Of a stretch of 37,431 nt of DNA, positions 3,881-24,161 are shown piece by piece (position 1 is the stretch's first letter; every line of letters starts with the position of its first letter). The stretch comes from a virus, in the IMG/VR virus record IMGVR_UViG_3300000101_000052, positions 1-37,431 of that record. One strand, given 5' to 3'. The notes beneath the pieces were generated by a model, which was not told the DNA's origin, did not search any database, and saw only the letters and a program-made list of their open reading frames with translations. The position numbers and the translations under genes were made by a program.

Positions 3881-5813
3881 TCATAACTCCTTGTGGTTGT
3901 GCTTGCATTTCTGCTTGTTGCTGCATCATTGCTTGCGCCTGTTGTTGTTTTTCTTTATCAGTTAGCATCATTTCATTTAATAATTGTAGCTCATCCGCAA
4001 ATCCCTTACTGCGTACATTTTCTGTTTCTGACTCTGCTTTTTCTGCTTGAGCTAGATTAAGTACGCCCTTAGTCTTCTTGAATACTGCATCATTTTTAGC
4101 AATGAACTCCTGAGTTTCAGCTTGTCTCCGTGCTGCTTCTTCTTGTGTATTAGGTTTAGGTTGCATTGCTTCTTGTAGTTTCTGATCAATCATTGGAATC
4201 ATTTCTTCTCTATTAGAAATAGTACTTAATTGATACAGTGACTTAATTAGCATCCAGTATCCTACACTGTCAGGCTGAGTTGTATTAAGTAGTTGTACTA
4301 TCTGTTGTGTTTCTACTTCCCTTGCCATAATGCCAAGACTAGAATTAACAACAAAATGTAAATCTACCAGTGGGTACTTGTCGGGGTCAGCTTGCATGTA
4401 TCTCCAAGCAGACTTTTTAACAAATTCATCTAACAGGTTAACTTCTATATTTAATAGTGTACGTTTGTTTCGTTTAATAGAAGCACTAACTACCATACCC
4501 ATATTACCAGTTGTTTGATTAGGGTTTTGGTTTCTGGATTGTGCTTGAAAAGCACCTGTTCCCATTTCAACCATACGTTCTAAATCACCTGACTGATTAA
4601 AACTAGAAGGAGGTGGTGGGTTAAAGTTAATAGGAGCTATACTTTCTGCTATAGAACCATTAGTAAATATGGTTCTGCCGGGGTATACCTTAAACTTAGT
4701 GTTTAAATCGCGAGGTACAAGGCTTGCGTTTACTCCAATCATGGGTGCTACGGCAAAAGCCATCGCGTCAATCCTCGCTCTTAATTCTGCATCTAACGCT
4801 TTTTGAGGTGAGTATCCTTTTTCAGCTACTCCTCTTCCCCAAAATCTATTAGGAACTCTATCATGTTGATAAGCTATAATACTTCTATCGTGCATAAAGA
4901 ATGGATTTTCAATAGCCCTTAACAAAACAGAATCATTTGCTATAGTTACAATAGCTTCTACCATTCCTGCTTCGTCTTCAGGTAAGTCTTGTGTCATTTC
5001 TAACTCTTCTTCAATGACCGAACCAATAGGGTCTAACATACTCTTAGGTACTTTACCATGATACTCTGTTATTTTAACCCAATCTTCTTTGCTAGATGGT
5101 GTAGTTTCCCCGTAAGCAGAGAAGTTATCATCATCTGAGTAGCTTCCTATCTCTACATTTGCATATATTCCTGACTTTTGTTTAGCTTCTATTTTATGAA
5201 CATTGCTTCGCATTACATGAGCGCAGCCTATTGCATCATCTATACTTCTAGCTAGTGGATCTATTACAAACTCACGGGGATCTATTGGAATTAACTTAAC
5301 GCATGGATATAACTTCTCTTCTGATGTTAGCGTTCCATCTTCATTCTGTATTGGTACACGATTCTTACGAGATTCAACTACTACTTTAGCAATACCAGTG
5401 CCGTATATAGCACCGTTTAATACTACTTCTGCAATGTTAGCAGGTACTTTATTAATGTCGTATTCTTTCATTAAAGTAGACAAAAACACATCCATGCTTT
5501 GTCTTTGTTGTTCATCGTTTATAGTAGTTCTATCTATATCTAACCATTTCTTTTTAGAGAACAATGCTTCTTCTAACTCAGCTACTGTAGCTTCTATAGC
5601 TTGTTGTAAAGCAGGTGCAATAATTCTACTACGCTCACTACTTCTAAGTTTATCTTCTGACTTCCAAATACCACGCCATAGCCTGTAGTACTCATCCCAT
5701 TTATCTTTGTAGTTATTATCTCGGTAGTCTTCCCATCCTTCACAGTGACCTATAACCCAAGCTACTAGAGGGTCTCTTCCTTTACTTTCATTATTATTAG
5801 GTAGTCTATTCAT
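3852..5813 (-). CDS. Portal (head-to-tail connector) protein
   Basis: A 653-residue protein immediately downstream of the large terminase gene, the usual place for the portal. It forms the dodecameric ring at one capsid vertex through which DNA is packaged and released. Visible features include an aromatic-rich N-terminus (YRDNNYKDKWDEYYRLWRG), a central VYGTG-like segment (NGAIYGTGIAKVVVES) typical of podovirus portals, a long helical part and a Gln/Met-rich low-complexity C-terminal tail (residues about 610-650). It is larger than T7 gp8 (about 536 residues), resembling the longer portals of marine podoviruses. Confidence 0.85.
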   Translation of the reverse strand: MNRLPNNNESKGRDPLVAWVIGHCEGWEDYRDNNYKDKWDEYYRLWRGIWKSEDKLRSSERSRIIAPALQQAIEATVAELEEALFSKKKWLDIDRTTINDEQQRQSMDVFLSTLMKEYDINKVPANIAEVVLNGAIYGTGIAKVVVESRKNRVPIQNEDGTLTSEEKLYPCVKLIPIDPREFVIDPLARSIDDAIGCAHVMRSNVHKIEAKQKSGIYANVEIGSYSDDDNFSAYGETTPSSKEDWVKITEYHGKVPKSMLDPIGSVIEEELEMTQDLPEDEAGMVEAIVTIANDSVLLRAIENPFFMHDRSIIAYQHDRVPNRFWGRGVAEKGYSPQKALDAELRARIDAMAFAVAPMIGVNASLVPRDLNTKFKVYPGRTIFTNGSIAESIAPINFNPPPPSSFNQSGDLERMVEMGTGAFQAQSRNQNPNQTTGNMGMVVSASIKRNKRTLLNIEVNLLDEFVKKSAWRYMQADPDKYPLVDLHFVVNSSLGIMAREVETQQIVQLLNTTQPDSVGYWMLIKSLYQLSTISNREEMIPMIDQKLQEAMQPKPNTQEEAARRQAETQEFIAKNDAVFKKTKGVLNLAQAEKAESETENVRSKGFADELQLLNEMMLTDKEKQQQAQAMMQQQAEMQAQPQGVMNGQDPTRDI

Positions 5814-5822
5814 ATTATCCCT

Positions 5823-7097
5823 TTAGTATCCTGCAAAGTCATCCATCATTTCCCATGTGTCAACAACAGATTCATCTATATAACTAGTTACTGCTATCTG
5901 GTCTATATAAGCTAGTGCATCAAGCATATCGTCATGTGTTAGTGGGTTAGGAAAATCTAATGCTTGCTCTGCTAGTTGCTTTAGATAAGTTCCTGCGGTA
6001 AACGATACTCTCCCATGCTCTAACCGTCCTTGTAACGCCCATGTAACTCTATCTATTTTTCGTTGACCACCGTGTGTTAATTCTACTGGTGTAAAATAGA
6101 TGTTAAGTCTTCTCATTTGGTCAGAGAGGTATGGCATAATGGCGTTCTTTAAACTACCACCCTCAATTCCTAACTTCATTGGTCTGTATTTCTGATAAGC
6201 CTTTATAATTTTAATACTAGTTTCTCTTACATCCCACCGTCCTACTTGTATATCCTCAACATGCCAACCATATTCACCTACTTTAACTATTGCTATAGCG
6301 TGTTGATCTAACCTTGCTAACCTACTCTTGCTCTTTTTAGCAGTGTCTCCAAAACCCGCAGGGTCAACTGCTATATAGTAGTTACCGCCATCTGGTGTTT
6401 CTTTTATAGTTGTAAACATGTCAGGTTGGAATACTGCACCTCCACCTACATTAAAACTAGCTTCAAACTCCTGTCTAAATACATCAGCACTTAACCTTCC
6501 TTTCTGGTTTTCTATTTCTTTCTTTGGAATAAAGGGGTTGTCCATTGATTTAAACTCAAAACATGTCCAATCTTCATCACGCTCACCTTGTTTTAATAAC
6601 TCATAAAAGTGATTCTTACCTTTAGGTGTACCTATAAACAAAGCACCACCCTCTACATCTGCTAGTGTGGGTGATAATATTTCTTCCCACACTTGTGGTT
6701 TCATGTCTGCATATTCATCAAGAACCACATAAGATAAGCCTACACCTCGTAGAGTATCAGGTCTATCAGACCCTTTTATATGTATTTCTCTACCATTTAT
6801 TAACTTTACTACACCTGTATTTTCTAAAGTTTGGTTAATTACGTCTTTACCTAGACCTTTGATTAGCTTCCACATAATATCCTTTCCTTGTTGGAAAGTA
6901 GGAGCTACATAATATACTACTATGTCTTCGCCTAAGTTGTATCCTTTTTCATTCTTGTTTTTTAATCCCTCTATTAGTAAGGTTACTGCTGATAGGTATG
7001 ATTTTCCAAACCGTCTACCGGCAGCACATACCTTAAACCTAGAGTTAGTTTCAAATATCTCTAACTGGGGTGGGTGCAATTCAAACTTTAACTGCAT
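5823..7097 (-). CDS. terL: Terminase large subunit
   Basis: A 424-residue DNA packaging ATPase-nuclease. Walker A is AAGRRFGKS at residues 25-33 and Walker B is VVLDE at 124-128. The C-terminal nuclease domain shows the acidic residues of an RNase H-like fold in YYIAVDPAGFGD, GIEGGS and THDDMLDALAY. It docks on the portal and pumps concatemeric DNA into the procapsid. It lies 9 bases upstream of the portal gene. A candidate small subunit lies further upstream at 11362-11763, separated by the lysis and fibre genes. Confidence 0.95.
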   Translation of the reverse strand: MQLKFELHPPQLEIFETNSRFKVCAAGRRFGKSYLSAVTLLIEGLKNKNEKGYNLGEDIVVYYVAPTFQQGKDIMWKLIKGLGKDVINQTLENTGVVKLINGREIHIKGSDRPDTLRGVGLSYVVLDEYADMKPQVWEEILSPTLADVEGGALFIGTPKGKNHFYELLKQGERDEDWTCFEFKSMDNPFIPKKEIENQKGRLSADVFRQEFEASFNVGGGAVFQPDMFTTIKETPDGGNYYIAVDPAGFGDTAKKSKSRLARLDQHAIAIVKVGEYGWHVEDIQVGRWDVRETSIKIIKAYQKYRPMKLGIEGGSLKNAIMPYLSDQMRRLNIYFTPVELTHGGQRKIDRVTWALQGRLEHGRVSFTAGTYLKQLAEQALDFPNPLTHDDMLDALAYIDQIAVTSYIDESVVDTWEMMDDFAGY

Positions 7098-11125: not shown

Positions 11126-11275
11126 TTAACCTTGTCCTTTTCCAGATTTTGTCATCATACTATATTGTGATTGTCCTGTAGAAGCGACCTTTACATCATA
11201 CGTCTTGCTGCTGTTTAGTGTACCAATTCCTGTCATTTTAGGTGCTTCTTGGTACATTTTTTTATTACCTTTCAT
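11126..11275 (-). CDS. Small hypothetical protein downstream of the PqqA-like gene (49 aa)
   Basis: A 49-residue Lys/Ser/Gly-rich protein starting 13 bases after the PqqA-like stop, with AAAGGAAAA as ribosome binding site. It starts MKGNKKMYQEAPKMTGIGTL and ends GKGQG. It has no Cys cluster, membrane segment or resemblance to PqqD, so it is not an evident partner of the peptide. It ends 3 bases before the fibre gene start. Its function is unknown. Confidence 0.6.
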   Translation of the reverse strand: MKGNKKMYQEAPKMTGIGTLNSSKTYDVKVASTGQSQYSMMTKSGKGQG

Positions 11276-11288
11276 ATTAAATTTTCCT

Positions 11289-11360
11289 TTATTTATTGTT
11301 AATATACATAGTTACTTCAAATCCAAATCTAATATTTTCATAACTTGGTTTATCCCACAT
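11289..11360 (-). CDS. pqqA: PqqA-like peptide, precursor of pyrroloquinoline quinone
   Basis: A 23-codon gene with a strong ribosome binding site (GAGGAG, 7 bases before ATG), one base after the stop of the terminase small subunit candidate. The peptide starts MWDKP, continues with an Ile-Arg-x-Gly core, then FEVTMYI, and ends in Asn-Asn-Lys. This is the layout of short enterobacterial-type PqqA: Trp2, Lys4-Pro5, Arg11, Gly13, Glu15-Val-Thr-x-Tyr19 and a basic C-terminus, at the same length (23 residues in Klebsiella, from memory). In known PqqA the Glu and Tyr of E-x3-Y are joined by the radical SAM enzyme PqqE with PqqD, then cut out and oxidised to PQQ. No pqqB-F gene is visible here, so processing would depend on the host. 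Confidence 0.85.
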   Translation of the reverse strand: MWDKPSYENIRFGFEVTMYINNK

Positions 11361-11361
11361 A

Positions 11362-11763
11362 CTAAGTCTCCTCTTCTATTAATTCTGCATCTATAGTTTC
11401 TTGTTGTGTTATCTTAGTACCTTGTACTACGATAGTAATGCCAGAATTGCTCTGGCTTGCTGTACCATCTGATGCCTTTATTGCAGGTAATACCCTGTCC
11501 CAAAGTATCTTGAGGCAGGTGGAGTCACCTTCCTCTGCTAGTTCTATTGTCTTGTTTACAATAGGTTGAAACCTGTTTAGAACATCTGTCATTATACCAT
11601 TCTTTGCTGCTTCTTGTAGCAAAGTTAATGTGTTCTTACTTCCTTTAGGTCTACCTCCTTTATTACGAGGAGGTTCTGTTAGTCCACTGTTTTGGCTCGG
11701 TACTTCTTGTGTACTCTCGTTTGAGCTTTCTATAGAGTCTTTTATTATCTTTGTCGTAGTCAT
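11362..11763 (-). CDS. Putative terminase small subunit
   Basis: The protein of about 133 residues has a Ser/Thr-rich N-terminus, then the AT-hook-like GGRPKGSKN, then a helical region with EEGDSTCLKILWDRVLPA. That combination is common in phage proteins annotated as candidate small terminases, which recognise DNA ends for packaging. It is encoded far from the large subunit but in the same transcription unit. ATG 11763 is preferred over the TTG at 11769; a stop lies just upstream in frame. The start region overlaps another small open frame (11663-11803). Confidence 0.55.
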   Translation of the reverse strand: MTTTKIIKDSIESSNESTQEVPSQNSGLTEPPRNKGGRPKGSKNTLTLLQEAAKNGIMTDVLNRFQPIVNKTIELAEEGDSTCLKILWDRVLPAIKASDGTASQSNSGITIVVQGTKITQQETIDAELIEEET

Positions 11764-11803
11764 CTGCAATAGTTCTCAATCTCTTGGCTATTTTGTTATT
11801 CAT
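11663..11803 (-). CDS. Possible small basic protein overlapping the terminase candidate
   Basis: A 46-codon frame, MNNKIAKRLRTIADDYDKDN and onward, overlaps the first 100 bases of the terminase small subunit candidate in another frame. Its ATG lies inside the stop region of the upstream 40-residue gene (GATGAATAA), the coupling style used by accepted genes here (for example at 28176). The sequence looks protein-like (basic, amphipathic helix), but the overlap is unusually long and no family is recognised. Confidence 0.35.
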   Translation of the reverse strand: MNNKIAKRLRTIADDYDKDNKRLYRKLKREYTRSTEPKQWTNRTSS

Positions 11804-11918
11804 CGGATACTACCAGTTTGAGGTGACACTCTTTTGTTTGATCTAGTTCCTTATCTGCTTCTTCTAAGATCTGATCTAATAGTTCAGTGGCTAACTCTAA
11901 TCTTTCTATAGCTGTCAT
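11796..11918 (-). CDS. Small acidic helical protein (40 aa)
   Basis: A 40-residue peptide, MTAIERLELATELLDQILEE and onward, strongly acidic and predicted to form an amphipathic helix. Its start overlaps the stop of the preceding gene (ATGA), a sign of translational coupling. It sits just upstream of the terminase small subunit candidate. Function unknown. Confidence 0.55.
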   Translation of the reverse strand: MTAIERLELATELLDQILEEADKELDQTKECHLKLVVSDE

Positions 11919-12217
11919 CATACTTCGCTGTAGTCAAATCTTAATGTACCTGTAGCACTAGAACCTAATGTTATGTGTATGCCATTGAGTAAATGTATTC
12001 CCGCAGGAAACTCAAAGTTAGTGTTTATAGCTGTACTAGCTTTTATATCTAAAACTAGAGTACCACCTGTACCATCTCTTATTTCCATATCTTCTGTAGC
12101 AGTAGCTGTAATACAGTGAATGTTGTATAAAATAACTGGAGTAGCTACAACTACACTAGTTCCTGTACCGTGGGCATATACCTTGTATTTTACTAATGCG
12201 TGATTTACTTGTCCCAT
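11918..12217 (-). CDS. Hypothetical beta-rich protein, first gene of the leftward unit
   Basis: A 99-residue protein dominated by Thr, Ala, Gly, Ile and Val in alternating patterns, suggesting a beta fold. It is the first gene after the tandem leftward promoters (nearest predicted transcription start about 12300), with AAAGGA as ribosome binding site, so it should be strongly expressed. Small beta proteins like this are often virion decoration or fibre-associated components, but I recognise no family. Confidence 0.65.
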   Translation of the reverse strand: MGQVNHALVKYKVYAHGTGTSVVVATPVILYNIHCITATATEDMEIRDGTGGTLVLDIKASTAINTNFEFPAGIHLLNGIHITLGSSATGTLRFDYSEV

Positions 12218-12306: not shown

Positions 12307-12335
12307 ATTATATCATATATTCTAAGCTGTGTCAA
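12307..12335 (-). promoter_or_regulatory. Leftward sigma70 promoter, proximal
   Basis: On the minus strand TTGACA (12330-12335) and TATAAT (12307-12312) are separated by 17 bases, a perfect consensus. The predicted start near 12300 lies about 80 bases upstream of the first structural gene (12217). Confidence 0.9.
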
Positions 12336-12456
12336 GTAATATTTCTATAAACCCCTCAGTTTTTTTTATAGATAGATTATATCTGATCGTATTGGTATTA
12401 CTAATCAATAGTTTATAAAGATATGTTAGTTAAGTATGTCTAGTAGTTATACTATT

Positions 12457-12485
12457 ATTATATCATATATTTAATCAAATGTCAA
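12457..12485 (-). promoter_or_regulatory. Leftward sigma70 promoter, distal tandem copy
   Basis: TTGACA (12480-12485) and TATAAT (12457-12462) are again 17 bases apart on the minus strand, and the -10 region shares about 24 identical bases with the proximal promoter. It lies exactly 150 bases upstream of that copy. Both should be read by host RNA polymerase. Confidence 0.9.
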
Positions 12486-23540: not shown

Positions 23541-23758
23541 AGGCTAGACAAATCTTATGGAAGATGGATAATGAAAAAGAATTAAGTATAGAAACTCAAC
23601 TAGCATATGCTGAGAACGGTAAGACACCTGAAGAGTGGCTAACCAATGCTCGATTGTTATGGATTAGACGAGAGGAGGGTCAAATGTGGACTCCTGAACC
23701 TGAACATAGAACATCTTGGCTACAGGCGTATATGGAAACATTAGATAATGAAGTTTAG
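23459..23758 (+). CDS. 5'-3' exonuclease, C-terminal part in the shifted frame
   Basis: In this frame the helix-three-turn-helix region reads HLNFYQQILKGDRTDNIFG followed by IKGIG, the classic GDxxDNIxGIxGIG motif that must follow the N-terminal part encoded at 22863. The only ATG-started piece is at 23564, lacking this motif. One extra G in the GGG at 23459-23461 would restore a single reading frame. The tail ends in TLDNEV, overlapping the start of endonuclease I. Confidence 0.85.
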   Translation, partial: GHLNFYQQILKGDRTDNIFGIKGIGDVKARQILWKMDNEKELSIETQLAYAENGKTPEEWLTNARLLWIRREEGQMWTPEPEHRTSWLQAYMETLDNEV

Positions 23759-24161
23759 AGGACGTAGTAAGTTTGAAACACGTATAGCTAAAAACTTAGA
23801 AGAACGTGGCGTTAACTTTACCTACGAAACAACATCATACAATTATCAAATTAGACCATACAACGCTAAGTGTCAGGAGTGTGGTAGTAGTAATATATAT
23901 GAAACTAGGAAGTACACACCAGACTTCTTCTTGCCTAACGGTATAATAGTAGAAGCAAAAGGTAGGTTTAAACCTAGCGATAGGAAGTTAATGAAGGCTG
24001 TTATGAGTAGTAATCCAGAGCTAGACATACGTATGTTGTTTCAGAACCCTAACGTGTGGTTAACTAAATCAAAAAAGAAGAACTATGGTACTTGGTGTGA
24101 TTATGAAAACATCAAGTGGGATAAGAAACTAATACCACAAGAGTGGTTGGAGGAAGTATGA
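23748..24161 (+). CDS. Endonuclease I (T7 gp3-like, Holliday junction resolvase)
   Basis: A 137-residue nuclease. KYTPDFFLPNGIIVEAKGRF carries the Asp, Glu and Lys of the T7 endonuclease I active site, preceded by an N-terminal helix with FETRIAKNLEERGVNFTYE containing the fourth acidic residue. NPELDIRMLFQNP and KLIPQEWLEE match the family C-terminus. A CQEC pair (in a small insertion before KYTP) may bind zinc and differs from T7. It resolves branched DNA and degrades host DNA. It overlaps both neighbours. Confidence 0.92.
   Translation: MKFRGRSKFETRIAKNLEERGVNFTYETTSYNYQIRPYNAKCQECGSSNIYETRKYTPDFFLPNGIIVEAKGRFKPSDRKLMKAVMSSNPELDIRMLFQNPNVWLTKSKKKNYGTWCDYENIKWDKKLIPQEWLEEV

Follow-up and report, generated by a model that had tools for sequence, protein, structure and literature searches.

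An orphan 23-codon pqqA gene in a podovirus-like phage genome and in unrelated methylophages, with a proposed role in supplying the consumed precursor of PQQ

The stretch of DNA analyzed here (hereafter the window) comprises all 37,431 nucleotides of the IMG/VR record IMGVR_UViG_3300000101_000052 and carries a 23-codon gene whose product resembles PqqA, the precursor peptide of the cofactor pyrroloquinoline quinone (PQQ). In the pathway leading to this cofactor, PqqE together with PqqD links a Glu to a Tyr within PqqA; the remaining peptide is then removed, and the last step to PQQ is carried out by PqqC. The E-x3-Y spacing of these two residues is present in the window peptide (Glu15 and Tyr19), and its length of 23 amino acids (aa), with an end soon after the Tyr, lies within that of the PqqA family (about 22–24 residues). 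The peptide scored 46.4 bits against TIGR02107, the NCBI equivalog model for PqqA (E = 2.3e-12, cut-off 20), as well as 37.7 bits against the Pfam family PqqA PF08042 (E = 1.9e-9, cut-off 21.1), and the motif W-x-K-P-x5-R-x-G-x-E-V-T-x-Y had a single match in the window and no match in 100 shuffled versions of it. These sequence matches give good support for placing the peptide in the PqqA family. The original prediction had described a PqqA-like peptide of 23 residues and of the short beta/gammaproteobacterial form, preceded by a strong GAGGAG ribosome-binding site and separated by one base from the open reading frame (ORF) upstream. The family scores, far over both cut-offs, bear this out, and the short form, the 1-base gap and the ribosome-binding site were likewise recovered, the last with an anti-Shine-Dalgarno duplex of −9.1 kcal/mol vs. 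−5.6 and −3.2 kcal/mol for two neighboring genes.

In 50,697 phage records, a collection that holds only part of the Methylophilales phages known to taxonomy, tblastn with the peptide as query matched 12. Nine of these belong to phages of Methylophilales/Methylophilaceae (Venkman, MEP301, MEP401, MEP402, P19250A, and four records of Melnitz), while the remaining matches were one Manatee Spring podovirus and two records filed as 'Acinetobacter phage'. The 144-kb record CAKLQF020000010.1 (filed as 'Acinetobacter phage MD-2021a') contains a pqqABCDE operon together with a polyphosphate kinase, and is misfiled bacterial DNA. The small cultured phages examined have their pqqA in an unannotated gap; in Melnitz (locus L007, positions 3961–4056) and in the spring podovirus ctXG6705 (locus L003, positions 2067–2195), the annotation instead places a false hypothetical gene on the strand opposite pqqA. 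In Venkman and MEP301 the gene is oriented opposite to its neighbors, and terminator-like hairpins were found 3' of pqqA in P19250A and adjoining it in Venkman, which together suggest a separate transcription unit in those phages. The virion types of the pqqA phages differ (siphovirus-like, podovirus-like, T4-like), and pqqA was the only place of tblastx similarity between MEP402 (43.7 kb) and P19250A (38.7 kb); likewise, over the 8 kb of Melnitz that were examined, MEP402 had nothing but pqqA in common with that phage.

A degenerate DNA scan of IMG/VR yielded at least 120 contigs with pqqA, and the same pattern made one codon shorter, used as a negative control, gave 0 matches. Over the loci then gathered, a profile built from viral copies returned no score between 12 and 45 bits. 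The immediate flanks of pqqA formed 33 upstream and 36 downstream similarity clusters, corresponding to about 33 gene contexts. None of pqqB-E was found in the viral pqqA loci and the four methylophage genomes searched for them. Adjacency to pqqB-E is usual in bacteria but does not define the PqqA family, because hosts carry several pqqA copies per one set of the other genes. At loci L010, L016, L019, L023, L024, and L099 the viral PqqAs are of the R-L-G-F-E-V-T type, like those of Pseudomonas and Acinetobacter, and this sequence type suggests that phages of non-methylotrophic PQQ-using bacteria carry pqqA as well.

So that conservation could be judged without circularity, residues 3, 4, 6–8, 15, 17, 19, 21, and 23 were left free in a second scan. 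Glu15, Thr17, and Tyr19 were invariant in 58/58 of the new loci that it brought, with Tyr19 encoded by TAC in 40 and by TAT in 18, and the stop codon stood directly after residue 23 in all 142 loci matching this blind pattern. For syntenic pairs of loci from the first scan, the ratio of nonsynonymous to synonymous change (pN/pS) was 0.15 at residues left free by that scan and 0.03 at residues 12, 14, 18, 20, and 22. Across about 200 viral copies Glu15 and Tyr19 did not vary, and 195 of 200 had retained the Shine-Dalgarno core. Bacterial PqqAs usually have Lys at residue 4, whereas about one in three viral copies has Thr or Ser there. The peptide was identical to a sampled bacterial PqqA in 43 viral copies, and the nearest sampled bacterial gene differed from the viral copy at a median of 7 of 66 bases (the figures on these viral copies set aside the window's own locus and count four cultured phages twice, as short and as whole loci). 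Given the invariance of E15/T17/Y19, the low pN/pS and the identical peptides despite base differences, the reading frame and the reactive residues are maintained, and the selection on viral pqqA is, as judged from these comparisons, purifying. Conservation of the frame and of E-x3-Y in relatives had been proposed at the outset as a check on the prediction, and both were found to be kept. An RNA element upstream of pqqA was also considered and rejected, as Rfam matches were only to tRNAs and similarity in the upstream region seems to reflect how closely the phages are related.

On the host side, bacterial PqqAs with the string R-F-G-F-E-V-T-M-Y-[VI] belonged, among the matches listed, mostly to methylotrophs (Methylophilaceae, Methylophaga, Methylococcaceae) and to a few Arcobacter-like genomes. 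All of 100 Methylophilaceae genomes contained pqqA, in 1–12 copies (mean 4.3), and pqqC and pqqE scored over the cut-off in 96 of them, nearly always as one copy. The genomes G051, G056, G084, and G113 of this family had 10, 6, 3, and 2 pqqA copies, respectively, with no pqqC/pqqE over the cut-off; these assemblies may be incomplete, or the bacteria may import PQQ or rely on a divergent pathway. The same excess of pqqA in the family, with 3–12 copies of it and one of each other pqq gene, was previously published (PMC4109929), and pqqA RNA was reported at about 70-fold above pqqE in the methanotroph Methylosinus (PMC3615186). These copy numbers and this RNA ratio therefore indicate that hosts, too, raise the dose of the PqqA component only. 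The closest sampled bacterial peptides to the window PqqA (82%, W[DE]TP[EA]Y[SN]DIRFGFEVTMYINNK), obtained in a class-wide search, come from gammaproteobacteria, with no exact bacterial match in the sample, and the gammaproteobacterial genomes searched that bear them all carry quinoprotein alcohol dehydrogenases. Since the closest peptides are gammaproteobacterial, the host of the window phage may be a gammaproteobacterium outside Methylophilaceae. Protein similarity of the large terminase subunit (TerL), DNA polymerase, and capsid gave only remote matches to diverse phages, and no host was therefore called from proteins.

Within the window, pqqA is the fourth gene of a tightly packed leftward block with successive gaps of −4, 26, 1, 13, and 3 nt (Table 1). 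The ORF directly upstream had been labeled a terminase small subunit, a name that stands unproven given that its DUF5681 match stays below threshold and that PHROG gave no match. Two tandem predicted promoters (12307–12485), 150 bp apart and with the same downstream string AATAGTATA, precede the block. The genome around pqqA is clearly that of a phage and encodes TerL, an SU10-type portal, a holin, a family A DNA polymerase, and a primase-helicase, next to an M15 peptidase, a class II ribonucleotide reductase, a 5'-3' exonuclease, endonuclease I, and two Dam methylases; the latter are paralogues within one small genome (19698–20162 and 25277–25738). The expectation that the phage would be without other pqq biosynthesis genes held for pqqB, pqqC, pqqD, and pqqE, none of which was found in the window; a search for tRNAs in the 37.4 kb likewise returned none, and no dehydrogenase was recognized in this podovirus-like phage. 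The contig ends (1–638 and 36793–37430) repeat over 638 bp with 96.6% identity, not exactly. This may be a terminal redundancy whose two copies were assembled from different strain variants, or else a repeat that has diverged, and because of it the genome is probably near complete. The near relatives in IMG/VR that reach the locus (L266, L269, and L270) keep the pqqA frame in 3/3 cases.

Table 1. Features of the pqqA locus and further genes of the window
Feature	Position	Strand	Evidence
pqqA, 23-aa PQQ precursor peptide MWDKPSYENIRFGFEVTMYINNK	11289..11360	-	TIGR02107 and PF08042 matches; kept in L266, L269, L270
Glu15 codon, one of two PQQ-forming residues	11316..11318	-	Sequence; invariant in ~200 viral copies and in E/Y-blind scan
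Tyr19 codon, second PQQ-forming residue	11304..11306	-	Sequence; invariant, both Tyr codons used across relatives
Ribosome-binding site GAGGAG, 7 nt 5' of ATG, within end of upstream ORF	11368..11373	-	Duplex −9.1 kcal/mol
Predicted sigma-70-type promoter TTGACA-17-TATAAT, extended −10, upstream of pqqA operon	12457..12485	-	12/12 consensus match
Second predicted sigma-70-type promoter TTGACA-17-TATAAT, extended −10	12307..12335	-	12/12 consensus match
First ORF of leftward operon, 99 aa, no function assigned	11918..12217	-	
41-aa ORF, 4-nt overlap with 99-aa ORF	11796..11921	-	
135-aa ORF directly upstream of pqqA, 1-nt gap	11362..11769	-	DUF5681 match below cut-off; small-terminase identity unproven
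49-aa ORF directly downstream of pqqA, 13-nt gap	11126..11275	-	
Large terminase subunit, further along same leftward block	5823..7097	-	Pfam Terminase_6N/6C, phrog_2; bait for relatives
Phage endonuclease I, T7-type	23748..24161	+	Pfam PF05367, E = 1.3e-30

We propose, with a probability of roughly 0.7, that the phage gene specifies a true and functional PqqA precursor and would serve as an orphan auxiliary metabolic gene that keeps up the PQQ supply of the host during infection. As outlined for the PQQ pathway (PMC12997753), one PqqA is spent per PQQ, and because PqqB-F turn over repeatedly while each PQQ uses one PqqA, the peptide is the sole pathway protein that needs continuous production. 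A lytic phage with endonuclease I and an exonuclease would be expected to end host gene expression, and a possible role of the endonuclease in host-DNA breakdown would bear on the loss of host pqqA expression. Once host DNA is shut off or degraded, the host enzymes would persist while PqqA would run out; the phage could then replace PqqA alone from its own strong ribosome-binding site, the host PqqBCDEF would continue PQQ output for periplasmic quinoprotein alcohol (methanol) dehydrogenases, and ongoing respiration would power phage replication. In this scheme the shut-off of host pqqA, the demand for PQQ in infection and the fitness benefit are what we infer. That the peptide feeds the host PQQ pathway was one of the two roles originally suggested, and it is the one that the sequence evidence favors. 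With somewhat less confidence, we think it probable that phages of methylotrophs and of other PQQ-dependent bacteria repeatedly and independently acquired the bare precursor peptide, thereby controlling cofactor supply via its sole consumable part, and that such a 'substrate-only' takeover was missed by annotation because the gene has only 23 codons.

Several observations weigh against a supply role. The PQQ molecule is stable and shared between cells, so that an existing pool could outlast the infection. In the lineage of the window phage, pqqA shows four changes, three of them amino-acid changes (residues 3, 6, and 9), a number too small for selection to be measured, and the gene is absent from the distant relatives of the window phage (TerL about 50%), of which three exceed 30 kb. 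Among larger records it was present in 7 of 18 of the MEP301 type (5 of 7 when only records above 30 kb are counted) and in 1 of 13 of the MEP402 type, and a 42.8-kb relative of MEP402 has no pqqA at the syntenic place. As an accessory gene that is often absent from relatives, pqqA is hence not essential to these phages. A universal presence in methylophages and their relatives was rejected with TerL baits, as only 8 of 31 larger relatives of MEP301 and MEP402 had the gene.

The same pattern of gain and loss within phage lineages, along with up to 12 dispersed pqqA copies in hosts, would fit passenger DNA, i.e., a pqqA taken from multi-copy hosts that brings little benefit or acts as a homology patch for recombination. 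We regard this as unlikely, since syntenic pairs with much synonymous change show purifying selection, the viral copies lie a median of 7 of 66 bases off the nearest sampled bacterial copy, and the gene recurs in unrelated phages with its Shine-Dalgarno core in 195 of 200 copies. A recombination or attachment site in particular was set aside because synonymous change is high. Quite unlikely, in our judgment, is a different modified peptide, for which the host PqqE/PqqD would cross-link the phage PqqA into a product that signals or is antibacterial instead of becoming PQQ. PqqE belongs to the SPASM radical-SAM enzymes, a class that also produces other modified peptides, and an ocean study ties a PqqA-annotated family to defense genes (PMC11118758); yet the viral gene comes without pqqB-E, no additional modification or export gene was recognized beside pqqA in the annotated phages, and the phage peptide can be matched to host PqqA from end to end, with the same stop position. 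The other role put forward in the original prediction was that of a decoy or inhibitor, in which PqqD/PqqE of the host would be occupied by the phage peptide and PQQ synthesis would be blocked, e.g., to redirect metabolism or starve competitors. An orphan PqqA could bind PqqD, and the leader residues are conserved, but the reactive Glu and Tyr would be dispensable in a decoy, and yet both are invariant in every viral copy while the Tyr codons vary freely. In addition, identity between phage and host peptides is frequent and the hosts themselves hold many extra pqqA copies, so that the decoy has lost support and appears very unlikely. Contamination with host DNA or a mis-assembled contig can practically be discounted: the misfiled 'Acinetobacter phage' record proves that such errors occur in collections, but pqqA is present in three other contigs of the window phage as well as in complete cultured-phage genomes, which refute this explanation for the family, and the neighbors of pqqA there are phage genes and in no case pqqB-E.

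Methanol turnover in coastal seas involves methylotrophs such as OM43, which rely on PQQ-dependent dehydrogenases for it. If PqqA supply by phages is true, a gene of 72 bases would tie viral infection to one-carbon oxidation, and a testable rule for auxiliary genes would follow, namely that phages carry the consumed component and not the catalyst. As cultured methylophages carry pqqA, the proposal is testable now. Phage peptides this small are missed by standard gene callers; in the phages examined, pqqA either had no annotation or lay opposite a false gene.

Compared with known systems, the phage peptides resemble the PqqA of methylotrophic bacteria (e.g., WTKPAATEMRFGFEVTMYVMNK of Methylophilaceae) in length, in W2, P5, R11, G13, and E15-V-T-x-Y19, and in the strong ribosome-binding site, whereas the examined phage copies differ in being orphans without pqqB-E and in often having Thr or Ser at position 4. 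By analogy, cyanophage psbA (D1; PMC2570332) is also a case in which a phage would carry the fastest-used component of a host energy system, although D1 is a catalytic subunit that decays and PqqA a chemically consumed precursor of 23 residues. Virus-borne PQQ genes (pqqA, pqqE, and pqqD) were also reported from reservoir sediment (PMC13188868), where they are listed as phosphate-solubilizing, with no analysis of precursor supply and no link to methylophages. The nearest precedent is the T4-like methylophage VP_266 from Lake Baikal, a presumed Methylophilaceae virus for which the same role of its PqqA was proposed (PMC7678222); this single metagenomic population encodes a methanol dehydrogenase too, while the window phage is podovirus-like and has 37 kb. 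None of the openly available papers describing Venkman, MEP301, MEP401/402, or Melnitz refers to pqqA. What appears to be new is the recurrence of an orphan pqqA in unrelated as well as cultured methylophages, under selection and matching the pqqA-only multiplication of their hosts, together with its presence in the window phage with a different peptide type.
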